A stretch of DNA of 38,245 nt from the NCBI GenBank assembly GCA_944321715.1, contig CALUMJ010000027.1, positions 1 to 38,245 on the forward strand, in the 5' to 3' direction. Under the pieces are notes generated by a model. That model did not search any database. It was given only the letters and a program-made list of their open reading frames with translations, and had not been told where the DNA came from. Positions 15,536 to 28,299 of this stretch are shown here, piece after piece; the stretch's first letter is position 1; every line of letters begins with the position of its first letter. This DNA is from an uncultured Muribaculaceae bacterium. GTDB taxonomy: Bacteria; Bacteroidota; Bacteroidia; Bacteroidales; Muribaculaceae. A program made the position numbers and the translations under genes.

Positions 15536-16687
15536 CTACGCGTATGGACTCAATGCCGACTTAATATTGCGCAAAAAGCGCATGAAACGATGGGTATAGT
15601 AATGCGATTTTTCAGGTTCAGGCTTACGCACAAGGTGGTCAACTATTACTTCTATATTATTTACCCAAAATACAAAACGGCTGTCGGGCTGATAATTCCC
15701 CGCAAATTCAAGCAATTTGCCCAAGTCAAACTCGTCACTTACGATTCCCGCCCCTGCCAGCATGGCATCATGGGCATTGCACTCTTGCTCGATGTGTGCC
15801 GGCACCATCAGTATGGGTTTGCCCATATACATGGCTTCGCAGATTGACTCGAACCCAGCCGTGCTGGCGTATGCACGGCAACCGGCCATGTGCTCAAGGA
15901 AGGTCTTGTCGTCGAGCGGATGGAACATGAGCGTGTCGTCAACCTGCTTGACTTCGGTTTCGCCCTTGCGGTCCCAGAAGAAACACAGCGGCACATCGGG
16001 CCGCTTGCTATGCCACTGCTCCACTTGCTCGGCAAAACCAGAATTGACCATATAGCCATGAATATAATCGCCCTGCACCGGCGACTGCTGCAAAGCCTCG
16101 CGACGCAACAATGGCGGAACCACATAGATGTGCTGCTGCAAGTCGTCGGGCATGCGGGTGAACGACAATGCCAACAACCTGTTAGCCCCTATAGATGTCA
16201 AGCGTGTAAACATCTTGAGCATTTCGAGAGAAAGGCGGTTGACACGCGGAAACTTGAAATCGCCGTGCAAAAACAAGTATTGGTGGCCGATACAGATTTG
16301 CGGCACACGCGGACGGCAAAACAGGTAGGTCAACCCCGTAAGCAGTTCATAGAAGTTAACCACCACGTCGGCACCCGATTCCTTGATATGGCGGTTGATA
16401 TAGGCGATGCTACGCATGAACGTAGGCAACTTGAGCATATTGTAGGCAACACTGCGCATCAGCTTGTTGCGCCGGTTGGCAGGCGTAGGCAAGAAATTGG
16501 GGCTTTCAAAGCGGAAAAGCGGCGCGTGCAGCCTGTCGCGGAAAAAAGCCGGCAAGTCGCGTTGGCGGCTTTTGCCAACCAACACACCCACCACCTCGTG
16601 GCCGTGGTTCATCAGATGTTCCTCAAGCGTCAATGCCTGTGTGAGGTGTCCACGACCCTCGCCTTGTACTACAAACAAGAATTTCAT
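15536..16687 (-). CDS. GT28/MurG-like glycosyltransferase
   Basis: This protein of about 383 residues has a GT-B fold. The N-terminal acceptor half opens with MKFLFVVQGEGRGHLTQAL, the glycine-rich loop of the MurG/GT28 and MGT group. The C-terminal donor half contains GYMVNSGF, the CFFWDRK strand and the sugar-nucleotide signature ASTAGFESICEAMYMGKP followed by PAHIEQECNA. I start at the ATG at 16687, because upstream in-frame codons give an Arg-rich, non-family extension. That ATG overlaps the TGA of the phosphatase gene (ATGA, 16684-16687), so translation is probably coupled. Pairing with an LpxH-like lipid A enzyme suggests sugar transfer onto a lipid or envelope acceptor; this is inference, and the donor and acceptor are unknown. 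Confidence 0.85.
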   Translation of the reverse strand: MKFLFVVQGEGRGHLTQALTLEEHLMNHGHEVVGVLVGKSRQRDLPAFFRDRLHAPLFRFESPNFLPTPANRRNKLMRSVAYNMLKLPTFMRSIAYINRHIKESGADVVVNFYELLTGLTYLFCRPRVPQICIGHQYLFLHGDFKFPRVNRLSLEMLKMFTRLTSIGANRLLALSFTRMPDDLQQHIYVVPPLLRREALQQSPVQGDYIHGYMVNSGFAEQVEQWHSKRPDVPLCFFWDRKGETEVKQVDDTLMFHPLDDKTFLEHMAGCRAYASTAGFESICEAMYMGKPILMVPAHIEQECNAHDAMLAGAGIVSDEFDLGKLLEFAGNYQPDSRFVFWVNNIEVIVDHLVRKPEPEKSHYYTHRFMRFLRNIKSALSPYA

Positions 16688-17487
16688 GATGCTATAGTAA
16701 TCATTTGCGCCTCGCCCCGGTCTTGCGGCAGGGAATCGGCAATATCGGTATAATAAACCACGTTCCAACGGCCATCTTCGTCCTCGGTGAGTGCCGACAT
16801 GGTTTCGACCCAGTCGCCAGAATTGAGGTAATGCACACCCTCGTAATAAGTATTGTCGGGGTGGTGTATATGGCCGCAAATAATACCATCGAACTTGCGC
16901 GCACGGGCAAACTCGGCAAGCGTGTGTTCAAAATCGGATATGTAGTTCACCGCCGACTTCACTTTTTGCTTCACTTGTTGCGAGAGCGAGTAATAAGGCT
17001 TCCCACGGCGCATGCGCCAACGGTTATATATGCTGTTGAACGACAGCAAGAAAGTATAACCAATGTCGCCCAATAGCGCGAGCCACCGCATCTGCGTGGT
17101 CACACGGTCGAAAATATCGCCGTGGGTGACGAAGTAGCGCCGTCCGCCGCTTTCAAGCTCGTAGTCACGCACTATGCTGATGTTGTAGAACGTCAGCGGG
17201 GCAAGGCTGTCGAGGAAATCGTCGTGGTTGCCTCGCACATACACCACCTGCGTGCCTTTACGCTCCATCATGCGCATCAATATCTTGAAGAATCGCGTGT
17301 GGTAGTTTTGCCACCTGCGCATTCCGCTTTTCTTCAAGTGCCATCCATCGATTATGTCGCCATTCAATATCAGGCGGTCGCAATCTACGTTGCTCAAGAA
17401 GTGGCACACTTCGTCGGTCTTGGAATGTGAAGTGCCGAGGTGGATGTCCGATAACACAATCGTTCGATAATACTTTCTTTGTTCCAT
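16684..17487 (-). CDS. LpxH-like UDP-2,3-diacylglucosamine diphosphatase family metallophosphoesterase
   Basis: This 267-residue calcineurin-like phosphoesterase keeps all metal motifs: SDIHLG (Asp14, His16), NGDIIDGW (Asp44), RGNHDD (Asn87, His88), THGD (His122) and GHIHHP (His206, His208). A further conserved NSGDWVE follows. Family members hydrolyse UDP-2,3-diacylglucosamine to lipid X in lipid A synthesis at the inner-membrane face. Bacteroidetes carry several paralogues of this family, so the protein may be the lipid A enzyme or a relative with another pyrophosphate substrate. The ATGA overlap with the following glycosyltransferase gene marks a two-gene operon. Two -7 boxes lie just upstream. 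Confidence 0.85.
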   Translation of the reverse strand: MEQRKYYRTIVLSDIHLGTSHSKTDEVCHFLSNVDCDRLILNGDIIDGWHLKKSGMRRWQNYHTRFFKILMRMMERKGTQVVYVRGNHDDFLDSLAPLTFYNISIVRDYELESGGRRYFVTHGDIFDRVTTQMRWLALLGDIGYTFLLSFNSIYNRWRMRRGKPYYSLSQQVKQKVKSAVNYISDFEHTLAEFARARKFDGIICGHIHHPDNTYYEGVHYLNSGDWVETMSALTEDEDGRWNVVYYTDIADSLPQDRGEAQMITIAS

Positions 17488-17515
17488 TTATTCACTTGCG
17501 TTTTTCTAAACGTCA

Positions 17516-17536
17516 CAAAGATACTCTGCAAATATA
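17516..17536 (-). promoter_or_regulatory. Two overlapping-spaced -7 boxes upstream of the LpxH-like gene
   Basis: On the minus strand TATATTTG (17529-17536) and TATCTTTG (17516-17523) both match TAnnTTTG exactly, 13 bp apart. They may give two alternative starts with leaders of about 25-40 nt. Confidence 0.5.
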
Positions 17537-17732
17537 ACAATTTAATTGCGTTTCAGTAATAAACATGTAACAAATATTTGCCAAAGCCTGCATCTCGGCC
17601 TCAAAGCCAACGTGGCGGCGCACGTCATGTGCATGGTGTGTGCGATTGGCATTTTTCCCACATAAAATTGTACATTTTACGATTTCGATGTTAAAATTGG
17701 CAAGTATCGCACGATTTTAAACGGATTAGCTA
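17537..17732. other. Divergent intergenic region between LpxH-like and sulfur operons
   Basis: I see no gene here. It must hold upstream promoter and operator elements for both divergent operons. A GC-rich patch (about 17585-17650) contains short CATGTG/TGTGTG repeats but no clear operator. Confidence 0.3.
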
Positions 17733-17740
17733 TATATTTG
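17733..17740 (+). promoter_or_regulatory. -7 box (TATATTTG) of the sulfur operon
   Basis: An exact TAnnTTTG match lies 133 nt before the permease ATG. A start near 17747 would give a leader of about 125 nt holding the hairpins listed next. Confidence 0.55.
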
Positions 17741-17758
17741 CATACTTTAATTATTCAC

Positions 17759-17857
17759 ATGCCGAATGTTAACGGCATCGACAAGTTTTTTTAACCGCAC
17801 ATGGCTCGCCATATAACGAAGCCAGTGAACAACCATGTGCGCAAATGCCTGAAGGCA
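17759..17857 (+). promoter_or_regulatory. Structured 5' leader of the sulfonation operon
   Basis: Three hairpins lie in the predicted leader. ATGCCG/CGGCAT (17759-17764, 17773-17778) is followed 7 nt later by seven U (17786-17792), like a weak intrinsic terminator. CGCACATGG/CCATGTGCG (17796-17804, 17833-17841) encloses a competing GGCT/AGCC pair. TGCC-TGAA-GGCA (17846-17857) lies 15 nt before the ATG. No known riboswitch class was recognised. An attenuation or protein-binding role is inference. Confidence 0.45.
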
Positions 17858-17872
17858 ATTAACTGACACATT

Positions 17873-19432
17873 ATGAACTTTGAAATAGCATTAGTGTTAT
17901 CGGCCATCGTGCTGATGCTTGCGGCCTTGATTGCCGACCGCCAACGCCCTGGCATGATACTGTTTTCAGTGGTCGTGTTCTTCCTCTGCTGCCGCATAAT
18001 CTCACCCCGAGAGCTGCTCGAAGGGTTCAGCAACAAGGGTATGATAACAGTCGCCCTGCTTTTCCTCGTCAGCGAGGGGGTCAGGCAATCGGGCGCACTT
18101 AGCCAAGTAATCAAGCGAATACTGCCACAAGGCAAGGTTTCGGTGTGGAAAGCGCAATTGCGCATGTTGCCGGCAATCGGCTTCATCTCGGCATTCCTCA
18201 ACAACACGCCAGTCGTAGTGATTTTTGCCCCAATCATCAAGCGGTGGGCACAGTCGGTGGGGCTGCCGGCGACAAAATTCCTTATACCTCTATCATATAT
18301 CACAATCCTCGGCGGCCTGTGCACATTGATTGGCACCTCGACCAACTTGGTGGTACACGGAATGATGATTGAAGCCGGATATGGAGGGCTAAGCATGTTT
18401 GGACTGGCATGGATAGGCGTACCAATAACCATCGCCGGCATCGTTTACATCATGCTCGCCTCTAAACGAATGCTGCCCGACGAACGACGAGGCCCCGAAA
18501 TCGCCGAAGACGAAGAGGAAACACAAAAAGACCTGCACCCGGTGGAAGTGGTACTCGGGCCGCGTTTCCCAGGCATAAACAAGACTTTGAAAGATTTTGA
18601 CTTCAAACGCCACTACGGCGTGGAAGTGAAAGAAATAAAGCGCAGCGGCAAAGCAATGACCAAACGCATCGACAGGATACGCCTGTGCGAGGGCGACACG
18701 CTCGTGCTGCTTGCCGACGACTCGTTTGTCAGCACATGGGGCGAATCGTCGGTATTCCTCATGATTGCCAACGGCAAGGACGCAATACCGCAACCCAAAC
18801 GAGGCAAACGGGCTTTTGCGCTGACACTGCTAATACTGATGATTGTGGGCGCGACAATAGGCGAATTGCCCATCACGCAAGAAATGTTCCCGGGCATAAA
18901 GATGGATATGTTCTTCTTTGCCGCTGTGACAACGGTCATAATGGCATGGACCAACACATTCCCGGCGCGGAAGTACACCAAATTCATTTCATGGGACATT
19001 TTGATTACAATCGCTTGCGCTTTCGCTATCAGCAAGGCGATGACCAACTCGGGCCTTGCCGACCTGATTGCCAATTTCATAATCGGACTCAGCAACCAAC
19101 ATGGCCCATACGTGTTGCTGGCAATCCTTTACATCATCACAAACCTCATCACCGAGCTCATCACCAACAATGCGGCAGCGGCACTTGCGTTCCCACTCGC
19201 ATTGTCGATTGCCACACAGCTCGGTGTTGACCCAATGCCGTTCTTCATGGTGATATGTATAGCCTCTTCGGCCGGCTTCACTACCCCCATCGGATACCAG
19301 ACCAACCTCATCGTGCAAGGTATCGGTAACTACAAGTTTACCGACTTTGTACGCATCGGGTTGCCTCTCAACATAATAGTATTCTTAATTTCAATATTCT
19401 TAATCCCTCAAATCTGGCCTTTTGAATTTTAA
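17873..19432 (+). CDS. SLC13-family anion permease with RCK_C domain (probable sulfate importer)
   Basis: This 519-residue inner-membrane carrier has two homologous membrane halves. The SLC13/DASS signatures are FLNNTPVVVIFAP with LIGTSTNLVVHG in the first half and ITNNAAAALAFP with GFTTPIGYQTNLIVQG in the second. A cytosolic RCK_C/TrkA_C-like domain lies between them (about 225-295; FDFKRHYGVEVKEI, LCEGDTLVLLADD). Many bacterial relatives carry two such domains, and I can see only one clearly. Family members take up sulfate, dicarboxylates or phosphate with Na+ or H+. A 3-nt gap to cysC, followed by cysDN, points strongly to sulfate. It is the first gene of the operon and is preceded by a -7 box and a structured leader. 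Confidence 0.9.
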   Translation: MNFEIALVLSAIVLMLAALIADRQRPGMILFSVVVFFLCCRIISPRELLEGFSNKGMITVALLFLVSEGVRQSGALSQVIKRILPQGKVSVWKAQLRMLPAIGFISAFLNNTPVVVIFAPIIKRWAQSVGLPATKFLIPLSYITILGGLCTLIGTSTNLVVHGMMIEAGYGGLSMFGLAWIGVPITIAGIVYIMLASKRMLPDERRGPEIAEDEEETQKDLHPVEVVLGPRFPGINKTLKDFDFKRHYGVEVKEIKRSGKAMTKRIDRIRLCEGDTLVLLADDSFVSTWGESSVFLMIANGKDAIPQPKRGKRAFALTLLILMIVGATIGELPITQEMFPGIKMDMFFFAAVTTVIMAWTNTFPARKYTKFISWDILITIACAFAISKAMTNSGLADLIANFIIGLSNQHGPYVLLAILYIITNLITELITNNAAAALAFPLALSIATQLGVDPMPFFMVICIASSAGFTTPIGYQTNLIVQGIGNYKFTDFVRIGLPLNIIVFLISIFLIPQIWPFEF

Positions 19433-19435
19433 GTT

Positions 19436-20038
19436 ATGGAAAACAACATATATCCCATATTCGACAAGATGCTCGGCCGCAGCGACAAGGAAGCCCTGCT
19501 GGGCCAACGCGGAATGATGGTGTGGTTCACCGGGCTCAGCGGCTCGGGCAAAAGCACCATAGCAATAGCCATCGAGCGGGAATTGCAGCAACGGGGCATA
19601 TTGTGCCGGCTGCTCGACGGCGACAACATTCGCACAGGCATCAACAACAACCTTGGCTTCAGCGAGGCCGACCGCATGGAAAACATTCGCCGCATCGCCG
19701 AGGTCGCCAAGCTGTTTGTCGATACAGGCATTGTCACTTTGGCTGCTTTTATCAGCCCGTTGCGGCAAATGCGCGACATGGCTGCCGACATCATCGGGCG
19801 TGACGACTTCTATGAAATATACGTCAGCACACCCATCGAGGTGTGCGAACGGCGCGACGTGAAAGGGCTGTATGCCCGGGCGCGGCGCGGCGAAATAAAG
19901 GATTTCACAGGCATCTCGGCTCCATTCGAAGCTCCCGCAGCTCCTGCACTCACGCTCGACACATCGCGAATGCCGCTGGGACAGTCGGTCGAGGCTGTGC
20001 TGCAACTCATTTTACCACACATTAAGAAACAGTATTGA
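19436..20038 (+). CDS. cysC: Adenylylsulfate (APS) kinase
   Basis: This 200-residue cytosolic enzyme phosphorylates APS at the 3' position to give PAPS, the universal sulfuryl donor. The P-loop is GLSGSGKST (33-41), followed by DGDNIR (61-66), the lid serine in AFISPLR (Ser107) and [11 protein letters not shown] (140-150), all diagnostic of CysC. Length is that of a stand-alone kinase; here it is not fused to CysN as in CysNC proteins. It starts 3 nt after the permease stop and 10 nt before cysD. A stand-alone kinase matters here because the operon has a sulfotransferase and no PAPS reductase, so PAPS is the product used. Confidence 0.97.
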
Positions 20039-20048
20039 ACTACACAAT

Positions 20049-20960
20049 ATGGAAGAATCTTACAAGCTAAGCCACCTGAAGGAACTCGAAGCCGAGTCAA
20101 TCCATATCATACGCGAGGTGGCGGCAGAATTTGAAAATCCCGTAATGCTATATAGCATCGGCAAGGACTCCAGCGTGATGGTGCGCCTTGCCGAAAAGGC
20201 GTTCTATCCCGGCAAAGTGCCATTTCCGCTCATGCACATCGACTCGAAGTGGAAATTCAAGGAAATGATACAATTCCGCGACGAGTATGCTAAAAAACAT
20301 GGCTGGAACCTGATTGTCGAAAGCAACATGGAGGCATTCCGTGCCGGCGTGGGGCCATTCACCCACGGCAGCAAGGTACACACCGACCTGATGAAGACCC
20401 AGGCGTTGCTGCACGCTCTCGACAAATACAAGTTCGATGCGGCATTCGGCGGCGCACGGCGCGACGAAGAGAAATCGCGTGCCAAGGAACGCATTTTCTC
20501 GTTCCGCGACCGTTTCCACCAGTGGGACCCGAAGAACCAGCGACCCGAGCTGTGGGACATATATAACACACGCATTCACCGTGGCGAAAGCATACGCGTG
20601 TTCCCTTTGAGCAACTGGACCGAACTCGACATCTGGCAATACATACGCCTTGAAAATATCCCCATCGTACCGCTGTATTTTGCAAAAATGCGCCCGGTTG
20701 TGGAAATCGACGGCAACCTTATCATGCCCGACGACGACCGCCTGCCCGAAAAATACCGCGACAAAATTCAAATGAAGATGGTACGCTTCCGCACCCTCGG
20801 CTGCTGGCCGCTGACCGGGGCCGTGGAAAGCTCGGCCGACACAATCGAAAAAATCGTGGAAGAAATGATGACCACCACCAAGAGCGAGCGCACGACGCGC
20901 GTCATCGACTTCGACCAGGAAGCAAGCATGGAGCAAAAAAAGCGCGAAGGATACTTTTAA
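20049..20960 (+). CDS. cysD: Sulfate adenylyltransferase subunit 2
   Basis: This 303-residue catalytic subunit makes APS from ATP and sulfate together with the GTPase CysN. The PP-loop is YSIGKDSSV (35-43); the family usually has SGGKDSS, so the second position is changed from Gly to Ile. Family blocks follow in order: [15 protein letters not shown], the conserved arginine block [39 protein letters not shown] and [16 protein letters not shown]. The C-terminus [10 protein letters not shown] is canonical. CysD-type enzymes share their fold with PAPS reductase but differ in the C-terminus; this end and the cysN neighbour settle it as CysD. The gap to cysN is 49 bp and contains a short AATTGACAAT repeat. 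Confidence 0.97.
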
Positions 20961-20993
20961 CAATTGACAATGGACAATTGATAATTGACAATT
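20961..20993 (+). repeat. AATTGACAAT-type short repeat between cysD and cysN
   Basis: The spacer consists of imperfect repeats of CAATTGACAA, with GGACAATTGATAATTGACAA as its second half. It is internally palindromic through CAATTG. Similar ATTGACAATT strings recur between genes in many Bacteroidetes; their role is unknown. Confidence 0.6.
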
Positions 20994-21009
20994 AAGGAAG
21001 AATACACAG

Positions 21010-22473
21010 ATGGACGACAATAGCAAAATAGACATTAAGGCTTTTCTCGACCGCGATGAGCAGAAGGACCTATTACGGTTTTTGACTGCCGGCTCGGTCG
21101 ATGACGGCAAATCGACACTAATCGGGCACTTGCTATACGACAGCAAAAAGATTTATGAAGACCAGCTCGACGCCCTGAAGCGCGACAGCAAGCGCGTGGG
21201 CAACGCCGGCGACCACATAGATTACGCCCTGCTGCTCGACGGACTCAAAGCCGAGCGCGAACAGGGCATCACCATCGACGTGGCCTACCGATACTTCTCG
21301 ACCAACAACCGCAAATTCATCATAGCCGACACTCCGGGACACGAACAATACACCCGCAACATGATTACGGGCGGCTCGACTGCCAACCTCGCCATAATTC
21401 TTGTCGACGCCCGCTTGGGGGTAATCACGCAGACACGCCGCCACACTTTCTTAGTGTCGCTGCTCGGCATCAAGCACGTGGTATTGGCTGTCAACAAAAT
21501 GGACTTGGTTGACTTTTCCGAGGCTCGTTTCAACGAAATAGTCGCCGACTACATGGCATTCATAGGCCAATTGGGGATACCCGACGTGACGTGCATCCCA
21601 CTGTCGGCCCTTGAAGGCGACAACGTTGTCGAAAAATCAAGCCGCACGCCGTGGTACAGCGGCAAGACACTGCTCGACTACTTGGAAACAGTCGAAATAG
21701 ACAACGACCACAACCTCGCCGACTTCCGTTACCCAGTACAATATGTTTCCCGCCCCAACTTAGATTTCCGCGGCTTCTGCGCCAAAGTGGCTTCGGGAGT
21801 GATACACAAAGGCGACGAAGTGATGGCTTTGCCGTCGGGCAAACGCTCGCACGTGAAGAGCATCGTGACATACGATGGCGAACTCGAATACGCATTTCCT
21901 CCGCAATCGGTCACAATCACACTCGAAGACGAAATCGACGTGTCGCGTGGCGAGATGCTCGTGCACCCCGACAACTTGCCCTGCATAGGGCGTAACTTCG
22001 AGGCCATGCTCGTGTGGATGGACGAGGAAACTATGGATATGGGCAAATCGTTCTTCATCAAGCAAACCACCAACACCAGCCGTGCGCACATTACCGGCAT
22101 AAAATATAAAGTAGATGTGAACACAATGGAACACCTGTCGGTCGAAAATGGCAAACTCACACGCGACACGCTGCCATTGCAGCTCAACCAAATTGCTCGC
22201 GTGGCGGTGGCCACCTCGCGCGAACTGTTCTTCGACCCGTTCAGCAAGAACAAGGCGACAGGCTCGTTTGTACTCATCGACCCCATCACCAACAACACTT
22301 GCGCCGTGGGCATGATTATCGACCGCATAGACGACCGCGACTTGAACGCCGACACAGGACTGCCCACGCTCGACTTGCCAAAATTAGGCATCACGCCCGA
22401 GCATTACGATGCTGTGGAACGAGCCGCAGCCGAGTTATACCGACAGGGAATTGAAGTCAAAATCATCAAATAA
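21010..22473 (+). CDS. cysN: Sulfate adenylyltransferase subunit 1 (GTPase)
   Basis: This 487-residue EF-Tu-like GTPase drives APS synthesis by CysD. GTP-binding motifs are complete: GSVDDGKST (28-36), DTPGHEQY (107-114) and NKMD (162-165), with switch I around [15 protein letters not shown]. Domains II and III follow to the C-terminus [11 protein letters not shown]. There is no C-terminal APS kinase, consistent with the separate cysC upstream. Length is that of stand-alone CysN (about 470-490). It is followed 8 nt later by the sulfotransferase gene, which ties PAPS production to a sulfuryl acceptor. Confidence 0.97.
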
Positions 22474-22481
22474 CCAGATTA

Positions 22482-23591
22482 ATGGGACTTATAGAATTTA
22501 ACAAGTTGCCAGTCAACACCCTTGTCGGTGCCGACTGGCGCACTTTCAAGAATATCACGGCAGGACGCACCATCGGCAAGGGCTACCGTGGGAAATACAC
22601 CCTCACCAAGTACATCTGCCGGTTGATGTCGCTCTTCGCCGCCATACAAGACCGCCGCTATGCAAGCACATTGCAGGAACAGCCACTACGACACGACCCG
22701 GTGTTTATCCTCGGGCATTGGCGCAGCGGCACCACTTTTGTCCACAATGTGATGGCTTGCGACAAGCATTTCGGCTACTGCACAACCTACCAGACAGTGT
22801 TTCCGCACCTGATGATGTGGGGGCAGCCATTCTTCAAGAAGACCATGAGCTGGCTCATGCCCGACCATCGCCCCACCGACAACATGGAACTTGCCGTGGA
22901 CTTGCCGCAAGAAGAAGAATTTGCCCTCGGAAACATGACGGCTTGCAACTACTACAACTTTTGGTTCTTCCCGCAGTCGATGCAAGAATATGCCGACAAA
23001 TACCTGCTCATGAACGACATCACCGACGACGAGCTGCACGAATTTGAAGAAGCCTTCATCAAGCTAATCAAAGTGTCGTTGTGGAACACTGGCGGAACAC
23101 AATTCCTCAGCAAGAACCCACCGCACACTGGGCGTGTGCGCGAGTTGGTGAAGTTGTTCCCAAACGCCAAGTTCATATACCTGATGCGCAACCCCTACAC
23201 GGTATTTGAAAGCACTCGCAGCTTCTATAACAACACCATCAAGCCACTCATGCTGCAACCCATCAGCCCCGAGGAATTGGAACGCAACATACTTTCGATT
23301 TATGCCAAGCTGTACCACAAATACGAAGCCGACAAGTCGTGCATTCCAGCCGGCAACCTAATCGAAGTGAAATTTGAAGATTTCGAGGCCGATGCGATGG
23401 CAATGACCCAGAAAATCTACGAAACTCTGTCAATTCCTGGATTTGACGAGGCCCGCCCTGCCATCGAGGCATACGTGGGAGGCAAGAAAGGTTACAAGAA
23501 AAACAAATACAAGTATGACCAGCGCACAGTGCAATTGGTGCAGGACAACTGGAGTTTCGCACTGAACGACTGGGATTACCACTTAGAATAA
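22482..23591 (+). CDS. PAPS-dependent sulfotransferase
   Basis: This 369-residue protein transfers a sulfuryl group from PAPS to an unknown acceptor. The 5'-phosphosulfate loop is FILGHWRSGTTFVHN (75-89), and the 3'-phosphate-binding strand and helix contain FIYLMRNPYTVFEST (231-245; Arg236, Ser244). KNPPHTGRVREL (211-222) is the usual conserved block between them. The layout fits the bacterial Sulfotransferase_3-like group. An acidic PQEEEFALGN (142-151) and MPDHRPTDNM (126-135) probably line the acceptor pocket. There is no signal peptide, so the reaction is probably cytosolic or at the inner membrane face. The gene sits 8 nt after cysN in the same operon. Gut Bacteroides have been reported to sulfonate sterols and steroids from a comparable PAPS-plus-sulfotransferase cluster, so a sterol, steroid, lipid or glycan acceptor is possible; sequence alone does not decide. 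Confidence 0.92.
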   Translation: MGLIEFNKLPVNTLVGADWRTFKNITAGRTIGKGYRGKYTLTKYICRLMSLFAAIQDRRYASTLQEQPLRHDPVFILGHWRSGTTFVHNVMACDKHFGYCTTYQTVFPHLMMWGQPFFKKTMSWLMPDHRPTDNMELAVDLPQEEEFALGNMTACNYYNFWFFPQSMQEYADKYLLMNDITDDELHEFEEAFIKLIKVSLWNTGGTQFLSKNPPHTGRVRELVKLFPNAKFIYLMRNPYTVFESTRSFYNNTIKPLMLQPISPEELERNILSIYAKLYHKYEADKSCIPAGNLIEVKFEDFEADAMAMTQKIYETLSIPGFDEARPAIEAYVGGKKGYKKNKYKYDQRTVQLVQDNWSFALNDWDYHLE

Positions 23592-23605
23592 CGCTACAAT
23601 AAAAC

Positions 23606-24562
23606 ATGAAAGCATTGCTGAAACAAGCCATCTTGCCGCTACTGTTGCTTGCCGCCAACGTGGCAATGGCGCAACCTGGCGTTTACATGATTAACTACGG
23701 CGACATGGACCACTGGATTGACCGGCAAATAAAGGAATCGGGCATAATAGGTGGTGCCACAAAACATGTGTGGGCCATCGGTCCTACGATGACAATCGAG
23801 GGCGACGAGGCATATATCAACAAGGGCGGCTCGCCGTGGGGCTCGTCCAACGTTATGGCAAAGGTGGTGGGCATTACCAAGACCAACACATCGGTATTTC
23901 CCGAAAAACGCGGCGACGGATATTGCGCACGCCTCGAAACACGCATGGAAAAAGTGAAAGTGCTGGGGCTGATTAACATGGAGGTGCTTGCCGCCGGGTC
24001 GATTTTCCTCGGCAACGTGCACGAGCCCATCAAGGGAACCAAAAATCCGCAAAAGATGCTCAACTCGGGCATTCCGTTCACCAAGAAGCCTCGGGCATTG
24101 ATGTTTGACTACAAGGTGCAGATGTCCGACAGGAAAAACCGCATCAAATCTACCGGATTTGGCAGCAAGGAGGAAATCGCCGGACGCGACCTGCACGAGG
24201 TCAACCTGTTCTTGCAGAGCCGCTGGGAAGACGAGGAAGGCAACATATATGCCAAGCGCATCGGCACGATGGTGGTGCGCTTCGACAAGGATTGCGACTG
24301 GCAGAACGGCGCCTCGTTCACAATCATGTATGGCGACATCACTGGCGACCCGTCATACGACGAGAGCATGATGGGCCTCAACTCCATCCGTTACGGAGTG
24401 AATAGCAAGGGTGAAAGCGTTCCCATTCAGGAAGTTGGCTGGGGCGACCCCAACGACACTCCTACCCACCTGCAATTACAGTTCACAGCCAGCCACGGAG
24501 GTGCCTACATAGGTTCGCCAGGCAACATATTGTGGATTGACAACGTGAAACTCGTCTATTGA
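23606..24562 (+). CDS. Secreted PCMD-domain protein
   Basis: This 318-residue exported protein has a signal peptide (about 1-22, cut at VAMAQ). The mature part fits the PCMD family (putative carbohydrate metabolism domain) of Bacteroidetes. It has an opening NYGDMDHW block, the LAAGSIFLGN segment, the NSGIPFTKKPRALMFDYKV signature (about 153-171) and a closing beta strand GNILWIDNVKLVY. PCMD proteins are lectin-like beta sandwiches often found near polysaccharide-use genes; their ligands are mostly unknown. It lies 14 nt after the sulfotransferase gene and before a terminator hairpin, so it is the last gene of the operon. A surface protein here suggests that the sulfonated product, or its precursor, is met at the cell envelope; that is inference. 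Confidence 0.82.
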   Translation: MKALLKQAILPLLLLAANVAMAQPGVYMINYGDMDHWIDRQIKESGIIGGATKHVWAIGPTMTIEGDEAYINKGGSPWGSSNVMAKVVGITKTNTSVFPEKRGDGYCARLETRMEKVKVLGLINMEVLAAGSIFLGNVHEPIKGTKNPQKMLNSGIPFTKKPRALMFDYKVQMSDRKNRIKSTGFGSKEEIAGRDLHEVNLFLQSRWEDEEGNIYAKRIGTMVVRFDKDCDWQNGASFTIMYGDITGDPSYDESMMGLNSIRYGVNSKGESVPIQEVGWGDPNDTPTHLQLQFTASHGGAYIGSPGNILWIDNVKLVY

Positions 24563-24599
24563 CAAGCCACACACATCAATCAAAAAATACTTTTTTACA

Positions 24600-24638
24600 G
24601 ACCCGCGATGCATCATAAAAAGCCATGCGTCGCGGGTC
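24600..24638 (+). terminator. Hairpin ending the sulfonation operon
   Basis: Arms 24600-24613 and 24625-24638 form a 14-bp GC-rich stem with one U-G pair and an 11-nt loop. The tract after it (GTCTATATATT) is only moderately U-rich. It lies 38 nt past the PCMD stop codon. Confidence 0.7.
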
Positions 24639-24737
24639 GTCTATATATTATATCCATTTTTCCACAAAAACAATTCAATTCAAGAATTATGCTAAAAAAA
24701 AGACACAATTTATTACCTTTATTAGGTGAAAATATAT

Positions 24738-24745
24738 TATTTTTG
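24738..24745 (+). promoter_or_regulatory. -7 box (TATTTTTG) for the GLUG/Big_2 surface protein
   Basis: An exact TAnnTTTG match lies in a very AT-rich stretch, giving a predicted leader of about 35 nt before the ATG at 24787. Confidence 0.5.
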
Positions 24746-24786
24746 CCGTCATATTATTTCAATTTATTTACACAAATTTTTATGCA

Positions 24787-27700
24787 ATGAAAAAATTTAC
24801 CAAATTCATGGGAATTGCCATGCTTTCGGCCGCAATCATCGCCCCAAGTGATGCTACAAGCCTCCAAGCAAAAGGCAACCAATTGAACCAAGCTGTATTA
24901 GAAAAGTTGAAAGGCAATCCAGCTCAAACAGCATTTACCAAGCCTGCTGTAAAAGCCAACAGCCCTCTAATACAAGTAGCAAACACCTCCGCAAAAACAA
25001 ATTTCGGCACAAAAGCCATCGAAGGCGGCGTCAGCACCATAGGGCCCGCATCCCAATGGCAGACAATCGACGGCCCAGATGGCAATATGTGGTTGCTGAC
25101 ACAGGAATTTGTTTACAACAATTATCAAGTCACCTCATCGACCGTCACATTCTATGACGGAACAGGCGCACAAGTGGGAGAACTAACCATTACTCCTCCT
25201 GCCGATGAATATGCCAACGATATTCAGATATTGTATATCAACAACACATTCTTCGACAGCAATTCAAGCACCTACGAAGTCACTACATACACCCACTTCA
25301 TCGGCGACGACTACTCCACCTATGGGCGTTTCGAGATATACTCATTGACCGACGGCACATTGCTTAAAACCATTCCTGGCTCGGTAGCGATGTACGTGAG
25401 CCATACAGCCAACTACTCGACCTATCAGCGCTACTTGATTTGCAACGAAGAGGCAGGCGAAGATGGCAAGTATTACATAAACGTCGATGTATATGCCCCA
25501 GTATCATGGCAGTCGGAAGAGCCTACAATCGAGCACACCTTCAGCATTCCGTATGAAAACCTTAACTATAGCGACGGGCCGTATGTAAATACATACTTCC
25601 TAAACGACGAGTTGTACATCGCCCTTTCTCAATATGAGAAACCATATATGGACAACTCGACGTATGAGCCGACTCCCGACAACCACTACCTTGTAAACGT
25701 TTATGACAACGAATACAACGAAGTGGCTGCACTGTCAATTCCCGTTGAAACAGCAAGCGGCATGCTATATTCGATGTACTCCATGGGATATTTCTCTTAC
25801 GAGGACCTGTCTATCGGTAGTTATAGCGGCGATGACAAATTCAATTTCATTATCACCCGATATGACTACACTCCATCGGCCGAAGACTTCCTCTACAGTT
25901 TCTTCGTATATGACCAGGACGGCAACCTCATCAACACTATCGACGAGGAGGCAACAGCTTGGTCAAAATTAAGCCCGATTTCAGGGGAAGAGACTCAATA
26001 TGCCATGATACACACTTATGGCGATAGTGAATCTATTAAAATGGTCAACTTGCCAAGTTGCGAAACTGTGACTACGTTCCCTGGATACCTCGATGGGAAC
26101 CTCCTTTCATCCAATCTCGACCGCTACCCAGTCAACGACACATACCAGTATGTCATCCCGCATGGCAATGGTTATGACGATGGTAACGGCAACACCGTCA
26201 CACGCATTGGTTGGTACAACATCGACCAAACACTCGACCACTATGTCGATATCAACCTTGGCCCCAATGCCACTCTTGCACAGCACGTTTTCATGACAAA
26301 TTCACTCGACCCATACTTGTTCAACTGCGATGACGAGCATGAATACATCCTCTTGGTTACTACGTTGCAAGACGACGGCACCTCCACCACTTCGCTGTGC
26401 ATCGCCAACGACAGTGGAGAGATAATCCGCCAGTTTGGGGCAGATGAAACAAAAGGCAATTACAATTATGGATACTTAATCAACACCAACTCCAATGGCA
26501 AGAATAGCCTGCTCGTGGGTTACGTCGATGACAACTGGCAATATATAATCGACACGTATGAATTGCCATTCAGCAAATTTGAAGGCGGAGGTGATGGCAC
26601 CGAAAGCAACCCATATATCATCAGCACCGCGGGCGACCTCAATTACGTGCGCGATACCCCAAGCGCATACTATGCTCTCGGCAACGACATCGACATGAGC
26701 ACTTTCTATGGCGACTTCGAACCTATCGCAGACTTCACAGGCTCGCTCGACGGCAAAGGCTACAGCATCGACAACCTCTCAATCGCTGGTTCGGACATGG
26801 AAGTTGGCTTGTTCCAAGGCATTGCGTCTGACGGAACAATCAAGGATGTCACATTCAACAATCCTGTTGTCAAGCTCTCGGGCAACTGCATGTACGCTGG
26901 CGTAGTAGCTGGCAACATCATGAGCAATGGTGGCGGATACACCATCTCCAACGTACACGTCAACAATGCCGTGTTCACTTCCGACGGTTCAGTATCGCCA
27001 TCAATCGGTGGTATTGCAGGGCAGCTTACTATTTTCTCAAAAGTTAGCGACTGCTCGGTCAACAACATCAATATCGACGTACCCGAAGCTTCAAATGTAG
27101 GCGGCATCGTGGGTACTACTCGCACAAGCTCATCTGTCAGTGCTTCACGCGCAAGCGGCACTATCAATGCTGGCACGACTATCGGCGGTATCGTGGGCGA
27201 CAATGGTACTGGCGGCTCAATCACCAACTGCTATGCCGACATGCAAATCACTGGCGAGAACGAAATCGGCGGTATCGTAGGTGCTACAGTCCGTGGAGCC
27301 TCATCGACAACCTCAACCACAGGATATGCAAGCGCAGTAAGCAACTGCTACGCTACTGGCTCTATCACAGCCACGACTCCCAACCAATGGACCGGAAACT
27401 TCAGCGTTGGCGGCATAGCTGGTTCTATCACGACTAACTGGGGTGCACAGAATCGCGATTATTCAATCTACAACTGCCTTGCAGCCCTTGACGCAATCAA
27501 CCTGCCCGAAGGCACCGAAGAAGCTCTTGCCGTGGGTCGCATTATAGGCTTTACCATCGCCAATGAAGATTACATGGAAGGCGAAGAAGTGCTTCAAGAT
27601 GCAGGCCTTGTCAACAACTATGCTGTTGCAAGCATGACAGTGAACGGTAGCACCATCACAAACGATGATGCAACCACACCGCAAGGTGCCGACATCGCTG

Positions 27701-28299
27701 CCGATGCCATCGACACCGATTTCTTCACCACGACACTTGGATTCGCTTTTGGCAGCACCACTGATGAACCGTGGAAAGCAACTACCGAGCTGCCTATCCT
27801 ATACTTCGAACAACGTGCCACTGGCATTACGCTCGACGTTACCTCGGCTGCTGCCGGCATCGACAATTTGATTACAATCACAGCCACTGTTGAAGGCACT
27901 ACTGCCGACCGTGTAGCATTCACGTCGTCCGACGAAGAAGTCGCTTCGGTCATCGCAATCGCAATAGATGGCAACACAGCAACTGCAACAGTACGCTGCC
28001 ACACCGAAGGCTCGGCCGAAATCACTGCCGAAATTGACGGATTGACAGCTACCTGCACCTTAGATGTAACAACAAGCGTTGAAGCCATCGAAACATCGCA
28101 ACTGCGCATCTACACAGCCAACGGCAGCATCTTCGCTCCATCGGCTACCAATATCGCAGTTTACTCGATTGGTGGCGCACAAGTTGCCAACGTGAATGCC
28201 GAGAGCATTGAAGCTGGCGTTGTTGCCAACGGCATCTACATCGTAGTAGCAACCGATGCTACAGGCAACCGTGCCGTAGAAAAAGTGATTGTGAAATAA
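24787..28299 (+). CDS. Large surface protein: beta-rich region, GLUG repeats, Big_2 domain, sorting-like tail
   Basis: This 1170-residue exported protein has a signal peptide (about 1-28). Residues about 45-595 are Tyr/Asp-rich beta segments that may form a propeller. From about 598 the sequence GDGTESNPYIISTAGDL begins a GLUG-type repeat region running to about 950, with repeated GGIVG and YATGSI-like strings. A Big_2-like Ig domain lies at about 1008-1095 (ATGITLDVTSAAAG, FTSSDEEVASV). The tail, about 1097-1170, contains RIYTANGSIF and ends NGIYIVVATDATGNRAVEKVIVK, a type A sorting-like domain. GLUG repeats occur in adhesins and IgA-peptidase-like proteins, so an adhesive role is plausible but no catalytic motif is seen. 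It is monocistronic, with its own promoter and a perfect terminator. Confidence 0.85.
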   Translation: MKKFTKFMGIAMLSAAIIAPSDATSLQAKGNQLNQAVLEKLKGNPAQTAFTKPAVKANSPLIQVANTSAKTNFGTKAIEGGVSTIGPASQWQTIDGPDGNMWLLTQEFVYNNYQVTSSTVTFYDGTGAQVGELTITPPADEYANDIQILYINNTFFDSNSSTYEVTTYTHFIGDDYSTYGRFEIYSLTDGTLLKTIPGSVAMYVSHTANYSTYQRYLICNEEAGEDGKYYINVDVYAPVSWQSEEPTIEHTFSIPYENLNYSDGPYVNTYFLNDELYIALSQYEKPYMDNSTYEPTPDNHYLVNVYDNEYNEVAALSIPVETASGMLYSMYSMGYFSYEDLSIGSYSGDDKFNFIITRYDYTPSAEDFLYSFFVYDQDGNLINTIDEEATAWSKLSPISGEETQYAMIHTYGDSESIKMVNLPSCETVTTFPGYLDGNLLSSNLDRYPVNDTYQYVIPHGNGYDDGNGNTVTRIGWYNIDQTLDHYVDINLGPNATLAQHVFMTNSLDPYLFNCDDEHEYILLVTTLQDDGTSTTSLCIANDSGEIIRQFGADETKGNYNYGYLINTNSNGKNSLLVGYVDDNWQYIIDTYELPFSKFEGGGDGTESNPYIISTAGDLNYVRDTPSAYYALGNDIDMSTFYGDFEPIADFTGSLDGKGYSIDNLSIAGSDMEVGLFQGIASDGTIKDVTFNNPVVKLSGNCMYAGVVAGNIMSNGGGYTISNVHVNNAVFTSDGSVSPSIGGIAGQLTIFSKVSDCSVNNINIDVPEASNVGGIVGTTRTSSSVSASRASGTINAGTTIGGIVGDNGTGGSITNCYADMQITGENEIGGIVGATVRGASSTTSTTGYASAVSNCYATGSITATTPNQWTGNFSVGGIAGSITTNWGAQNRDYSIYNCLAALDAINLPEGTEEALAVGRIIGFTIANEDYMEGEEVLQDAGLVNNYAVASMTVNGSTITNDDATTPQGADIAADAIDTDFFTTTLGFAFGSTTDEPWKATTELPILYFEQRATGITLDVTSAAAGIDNLITITATVEGTTADRVAFTSSDEEVASVIAIAIDGNTATATVRCHTEGSAEITAEIDGLTATCTLDVTTSVEAIETSQLRIYTANGSIFAPSATNIAVYSIGGAQVANVNAESIEAGVVANGIYIVVATDATGNRAVEKVIVK

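Follow-up and report, generated by a model that had tools for sequence, protein, structure and literature searches.

The 38,245-nucleotide stretch analysed here (the window) is contig CALUMJ010000027.1 (C27) of the 2.82 Mb, 92.9% complete genome of an uncultured Muribaculaceae bacterium (GenBank assembly GCA_944321715.1). It carries six consecutive plus-strand genes that likely constitute a sterol-sulfonation operon of the kind known from Bacteroides. The run begins with the gene of a DASS/SLC13-type permease, a probable sulfate importer (17873..19432; CitMHS 205 bits, Na_sulph_symp 61 bits), followed by cysC, encoding adenosine 5'-phosphosulfate (APS) kinase (19436..20038; APS_kinase 218 bits, apsK 236 bits), and by cysD and cysN, encoding the small (20049..20960; TIGR02039 CysD 504 bits, NCBIfam cut-off 396.6) and large (21010..22473; PRK05124 CysN 704 bits, cut-off 590) subunits of ATP sulfurylase. 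Further downstream lie the genes of a sulfotransferase dependent on 3'-phosphoadenosine 5'-phosphosulfate (PAPS) (22482..23591; Sulfotransfer_3 136 bits), which belongs to the ortholog group of the Bacteroides cluster enzymes, and of a PCMD-domain protein (23606..24562; PCMD 78 bits), predicted to be exported and to consist mainly of beta strands. The intergenic gaps measure 3, 10, 49, 8 and 14 bp. This layout had been proposed in an earlier annotation of the window (the original prediction) and exactly matched the open reading frame coordinates, while the protein families were confirmed by profile matches. All six genes displayed ratios of nonsynonymous to synonymous substitution rates (dN/dS) of 0.017-0.091 when compared with a related locus (L037), with several dS values exceeding 1.

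Relatives were collected as 181 stretches encoding a relative, the best 80 of which were kept as named loci. The order permease-cysC-cysD-cysN-sulfotransferase was found in 64 of the 70 named loci whose upstream sequence was long enough, including those of Bacteroides fragilis and Phocaeicola vulgatus. The six loci without this order (L043, L055, L059, L062, L077 and L101) encode close orthologs of the sulfotransferase with no cysN directly before them; four are found in Prevotellaceae records, and the genome of L055 gave no strong CysD-like match (best 131 bits, in an 845-amino-acid frame). In L023, L024 and L025, which share one order family (f78), a CysC-like stretch with 34-38% identity is located between cysN and the sulfotransferase gene and perhaps represents a CysN-CysC fusion.

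An importer, PAPS-synthesis genes and a sulfotransferase are likewise combined in one run in the BT_0411-BT_0416 cluster of Bacteroides thetaiotaomicron. In the available sections of its description, BT_0412 is proposed as a sulfate importer, BT_0413-0415 are proposed to make PAPS and BT_0416 sulfonates cholesterol, an activity abolished by deletion of Bt_0416; B. ovatus, B. fragilis, B. caccae, B. uniformis, B. vulgatus and B. thetaiotaomicron are listed as cholesterol sulfonators (PMC9417993). As in that cluster, cysC, cysD and cysN of the window lie contiguously and directly before the sulfotransferase gene, with the importer gene before cysC. The comparison with BT_0411-BT_0417 was performed using the loci of B. 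faecis, B. xylanisolvens and B. fragilis as stand-ins, whose enzymes are 77-78% identical to that of the window, and the host differs, being a member of the Muribaculaceae. A 2022 study of BtSULT in Nature Microbiology is said to have assigned to BT0413-BT0416 the sulfonation of steroids with a flat A/B ring fusion. BLAST searches reported in the available part of a further source placed BT_0416-like PAPS-dependent enzymes mainly in Bacteroides, followed by Parabacteroides (PMC10932419). The predicted resemblance to the sterol-sulfonation clusters of Bacteroides is thus upheld by a shared ortholog group, a shared gene order and a shared path from PAPS to the sulfotransferase. By contrast, neither the importer nor the PCMD gene is an addition to these clusters, as had been supposed, since BT_0412 is already proposed as the importer in the accessible text of PMC9417993, a permease gene is present in most loci from outside the Muribaculaceae, and a PCMD gene lies downstream in 47 of 55 cores from outside the family. 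Because the permease scored 94.6 bits against the NCBIfam dass model, which is under the cut-off of 198.6, the assignment of its substrate relies on its position, the place that is occupied by BT_0412 in B. thetaiotaomicron.

The sulfotransferase of the window is 72-80% identical to the enzymes from outside the Muribaculaceae in the named loci (77% for B. fragilis and P. vulgatus), with outgroup rows at 37-38%, and groups with the Bacteroides cluster enzymes in a single clade. Its GHWRSGTT and RNPYTVFES motifs, which we take to be PAPS-binding, are mostly invariant over 41 aligned rows. Of 228 columns with an invariance of 97% or more across 74 orthologs from outside the family, the enzyme retains 212. 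The AlphaFold2 model of the protein (predicted local distance difference test score (pLDDT) 90.4) had STF9 and STF1 as its top matches in the PDB, with entries for human SULT2A1 lower in the list. No second match was returned by a Sulfotransfer_3 search of the genome.

The destination of PAPS was followed through the genome and through a survey of 198 sampled Muribaculaceae genomes from 30 genera. In the 92.9% complete genome, a search for cysH with PF01507 (PAPS_reduct) matched CysD only, and a search for sulfite reductase with NIR_SIR gave no match at E 1 (control: 12 of 14 known genomes matched, with Bacteroides ihuae and Lactococcus lactis missed). One PF01507 match apiece was obtained in six related Muribaculaceae genomes. 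Sulfotransferase and CysD are present in an identical set of 13 of the 198 family genomes, made up of all nine sampled genomes of the window's genus and four of one other genus (2/30 genera). Their co-occurrence argues strongly for a shared function, so that in this genome PAPS very probably supplies the sulfotransferase rather than sulfur assimilation. The original prediction had favoured the same destination as the simplest one; the lack of cysH, sulfite reductase and cysQ on which it was built extends from the window to the genome, and a cysH-sir pathway elsewhere that draws on these cysCDN genes was looked for and not found.

A gene for CysQ, which is common at the head of the operon in relatives, is missing here. 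It lies directly before the permease gene in 58 of the 64 five-gene cores, comprising all 58 from outside the Muribaculaceae and none of the six from within the family. None of the 198 sampled Muribaculaceae genomes contained a CysQ match at E 1e-40, and CysQ exceeded its curated cut-off in 8/8 genomes searched from outside the family and in 0/6 Muribaculaceae genomes, at a cut-off strict enough to be reached by only 2 of 14 control genomes. One control, B. ihuae, possesses CysD yet gave no CysQ match at E 1e-40, so the lack of CysQ is not confined to Muribaculaceae and CysQ is not universal in Bacteroides. The sole Inositol_P match of the genome, on contig C13, was rejected as CysQ (93 bits against a cut-off of 228.8); its best match was an inositol-monophosphatase model (187 bits), itself under the cut-off of 332. 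The available text of PMC9417993 does not state cysQ to be a defining part of the cluster. As judged from sequence, its absence is nonetheless a clear difference from the known cluster kind, new but modest. Since 3'-phosphoadenosine 5'-phosphate (PAP) can inhibit sulfotransferases, according to the accessible part of PMC8268124, something other than CysQ should clear it in this organism. One candidate may be a DHH/DHHA1 phosphoesterase of NrnA type encoded elsewhere in the genome (L116, scanned as 346 amino acids); its top NCBIfam hit is NrnA, a bifunctional oligoribonuclease and PAP phosphatase.

Of the 75 named loci whose sequence extends far enough past the sulfotransferase gene, 61 have a PCMD gene downstream of it; among full cores that extend far enough the count is 53 of 61, including all six from Muribaculaceae. 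A survey covering 295 order genomes yielded 56 with a sulfotransferase match at E 1e-10 and 25 with a close one (at least 58% identity); a PCMD match occurred in 24 of these 25 genomes, compared to 21 of the 270 others. Of the 24 genomes with both, 13 have the PCMD gene beside the sulfotransferase gene and 11 have it elsewhere, for which reason PCMD was rejected as an obligatory component of the pathway; the link between the two may reflect shared lineage. At the locus of P. vulgatus ATCC 8482 (L074) PCMD is absent, an unlinked copy not having been looked for, and B. vulgatus is among the cholesterol sulfonators listed in the available text of PMC9417993. In the second Muribaculaceae genus, all four regions read contain a five-gene cluster that lacks cysQ and has no PCMD gene beside it. 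The PCMD protein of the window has a signal-peptide-like start, as judged by eye on the translation, and no cysteine for lipidation, which agrees with its predicted secretion and leaves the surface location that had been attributed to it putative.

The six genes are likely to represent an operon for sterol sulfonation like that of BT_0416 (BtSULT), acquired as a block and leading from sulfate import to sterol sulfonation, with PAP cleared by an NrnA-type enzyme. The genes would be co-transcribed. Sulfate would be brought in by the permease, converted to APS by CysDN and further to PAPS by CysC. The cytoplasmic sulfotransferase would then transfer the sulfonate group to a hydroxyl of a sterol-like acceptor entering the cell; cholesterol or a steroid related to it is the most likely acceptor. 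CysQ not having been found, the resulting PAP would probably be cleared by a DHH phosphoesterase of NrnA type whose gene lies elsewhere. The PCMD protein would be exported as an accessory component that is dispensable for catalysis.

Several points weigh against this interpretation. The acceptor and the substrate of the importer are assigned by orthology. Sixteen near-invariant positions are changed in the window's sulfotransferase, with I11V, S92A and T156N found in 7/7 Muribaculaceae copies, so that its acceptor range may differ. With 103 bits, the NrnA score of L116 falls short of the NCBIfam cut-off of 350. The 13 co-occurrences of sulfotransferase and CysD come down to two genera and are therefore not 13 independent events. 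According to the available sections of PMC9417993, lactose induced Bt_0412 and not Bt_0416 in B. thetaiotaomicron, whereas cholesterol induced both, so the two genes do not strictly form one unit in that species. Finally, in a clade test on 52 sulfotransferase rows (the window, 47 picked from a larger set and four new ones), a tree in which the two Muribaculaceae genera are held together was not rejected (p 0.09).

The last point bears on the origin of the operon, which was probably gained by the genus as a block of six genes from a Bacteroidaceae-like source, as suggested by the PCMD phylogeny and the distribution of the genes. It may instead be ancestral in Muribaculaceae and lost in most genera, a history that is given perhaps one chance in four. 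In line with the latter, the seven Muribaculaceae sulfotransferases formed one clade in a quick tree (support 98), and this clade adjoins Bacteroidaceae rather than lying firmly inside them. However, only two of the 30 sampled genera carry the operon, and these two have unlike gene complements. A PCMD tree of 57 rows (the window, 36 operon copies and 20 copies from regions picked from 45 genomes) placed the operon copies of the genus inside a supported set (99, 35 rows) of mainly Bacteroidaceae operon copies, with three resident copies from family members lacking a sulfotransferase match falling elsewhere. In a 50-row careful tree, from which seven long-branched rows had been dropped, a single group of the genus's operon copies and the three residents was rejected (approximately unbiased test, p-AU 8.6e-5); the contrast had been set before the first tree, and the removal of the seven rows was decided after it. 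The PCMD proteins of the genus are 57-70% identical to named Bacteroidaceae operon copies and 46-51% identical to the three residents, the two ranges having been obtained with different alignment methods. Transfer is the better reading than loss elsewhere, and the finding is new but modest.

Doubt about the acceptor can take two forms. In the first, the genus would have taken the operon from Bacteroidaceae and run it without CysQ by means of an NrnA-type enzyme, with the acceptor shifted in the process; this combination is rather unlikely. Slightly less likely still, the sulfotransferase would act on a surface glycan, lipid or peptide of the cell itself instead of a sterol from host or diet, and the PCMD protein, as a beta-sandwich of carbohydrate-related type, would bind or process the product outside. 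This idea draws on the PCMD model (pLDDT 88.7), whose best PDB matches are BT_2081, BT3745 and BACOVA_00087 (putative glycoside hydrolases according to their depositions) and which weakly resembles carbohydrate-binding modules, as well as on the clade-specific substitutions in the sulfotransferase and on the proximity of its structure to STF9 and STF1 instead of sterol SULTs. The operon lacks any glycan-synthesis gene, however, its PCMD component is separated from the sulfotransferase in 11 of the 24 order genomes with both and missing at the P. vulgatus locus, and the 77%-identical orthologs in B. fragilis and P. vulgatus are encoded in the same operon in species reported as cholesterol sulfonators (PMC9417993, available sections). 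Sterol sulfonation hence remains the preferred function. Assimilatory sulfate reduction (cysDNC-cysH-sulfite reductase), of which CysD, CysN and CysC are the opening steps in many bacteria, is a most improbable role for these genes, with the sulfotransferase as an incidental neighbour, because neither a PAPS reductase nor a sulfite reductase was found in the genome and CysD tracks the sulfotransferase exactly across the family.

Upstream of the permease gene, the probable promoter -7 element TATATTTG (17733..17740, plus strand) is identical in 6/6 upstream regions aligned from close relatives, of which two hardly differ over their whole length. It fits what we take to be the Bacteroidota -7 type, TAnnTTTG, and the longer string TANNTTTGCATACTTTAAT occurs once in the window; no partner element was seen by eye upstream of it at the spacing we assume. 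The intergenic region toward a divergent phosphoesterase gene (17500-17740) contains further blocks common to all six regions, including CACATAAA and GTTAAAA, which are possible operator sites. A leader RNA was considered and rejected, as the window gave no Rfam match and the conserved upstream part lies on the promoter side. The divergent metallophosphoesterase gene (16684-17487, minus strand) and a glycosyltransferase gene (15536-16879, minus strand) were weighed as candidates for a PAP phosphatase and its partner; the pair accompanies the operon in L034-L038 and not in L044, so that the two look like mere neighbours.

A hairpin downstream of the PCMD gene (24600..24638, plus strand; 14 pairs, -26.1 kcal/mol, z -5.9), matched in stability by 0/200 shuffles, is the probable transcript end. 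Given its 11-nt loop, the lack of an immediate T run and its absence from the list of a terminator scan of the window, this role is likely but not textbook; of the proposal that the operon ends at a hairpin, the strong hairpin itself was confirmed, whereas its action as a terminator is qualified by these features. The gene after the operon on the same strand (24787-28299) encodes a protein of 1170 amino acids that carries a GLUG motif and, below threshold, a tail of the type IX secretion system type (20.8 bits, cut-off 23).

Two further features concern the operon sequence itself. In the spacer between cysD and cysN, positions 20961-20996 contain short direct repeats of the CAATTGACAATTGA type; seven overlapping matches to this 15-mer (at most three mismatches) were found, all in or at the edge of this spacer, with 1.9 expected window-wide. 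When compared in 250-base bins with Candidatus Avimuribaculum pullicola (L034), the end of cysN, the sulfotransferase gene and most of the PCMD gene (22251-24500) are 81-92% identical, and the flanking positions 17251-21750 and 24501-28250 are mostly 96-100% identical, with one bin at 90.8%. The sulfotransferase gene has a dS of 0.87, against 0.008 for the permease gene, and the divergent segment looks like a replacement through recombination.

The operon kind is already known from Bacteroides and is found here in a family that is mostly without it, and without CysQ. As judged by titles and the beginnings of abstracts, searches of open papers turned up no description of the operon in Muribaculaceae or of its missing CysQ. 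The latter raises the question of how PAP is disposed of by a cell whose PAPS serves a sulfotransferase alone. In Bacteroides, cholesterol sulfonation by microbes has been demonstrated and linked to host cholesterol levels (PMC9417993). If a Muribaculaceae genus also sulfonates sterols, the trait would move between families, which would affect the way in which community data are used to judge its abundance.

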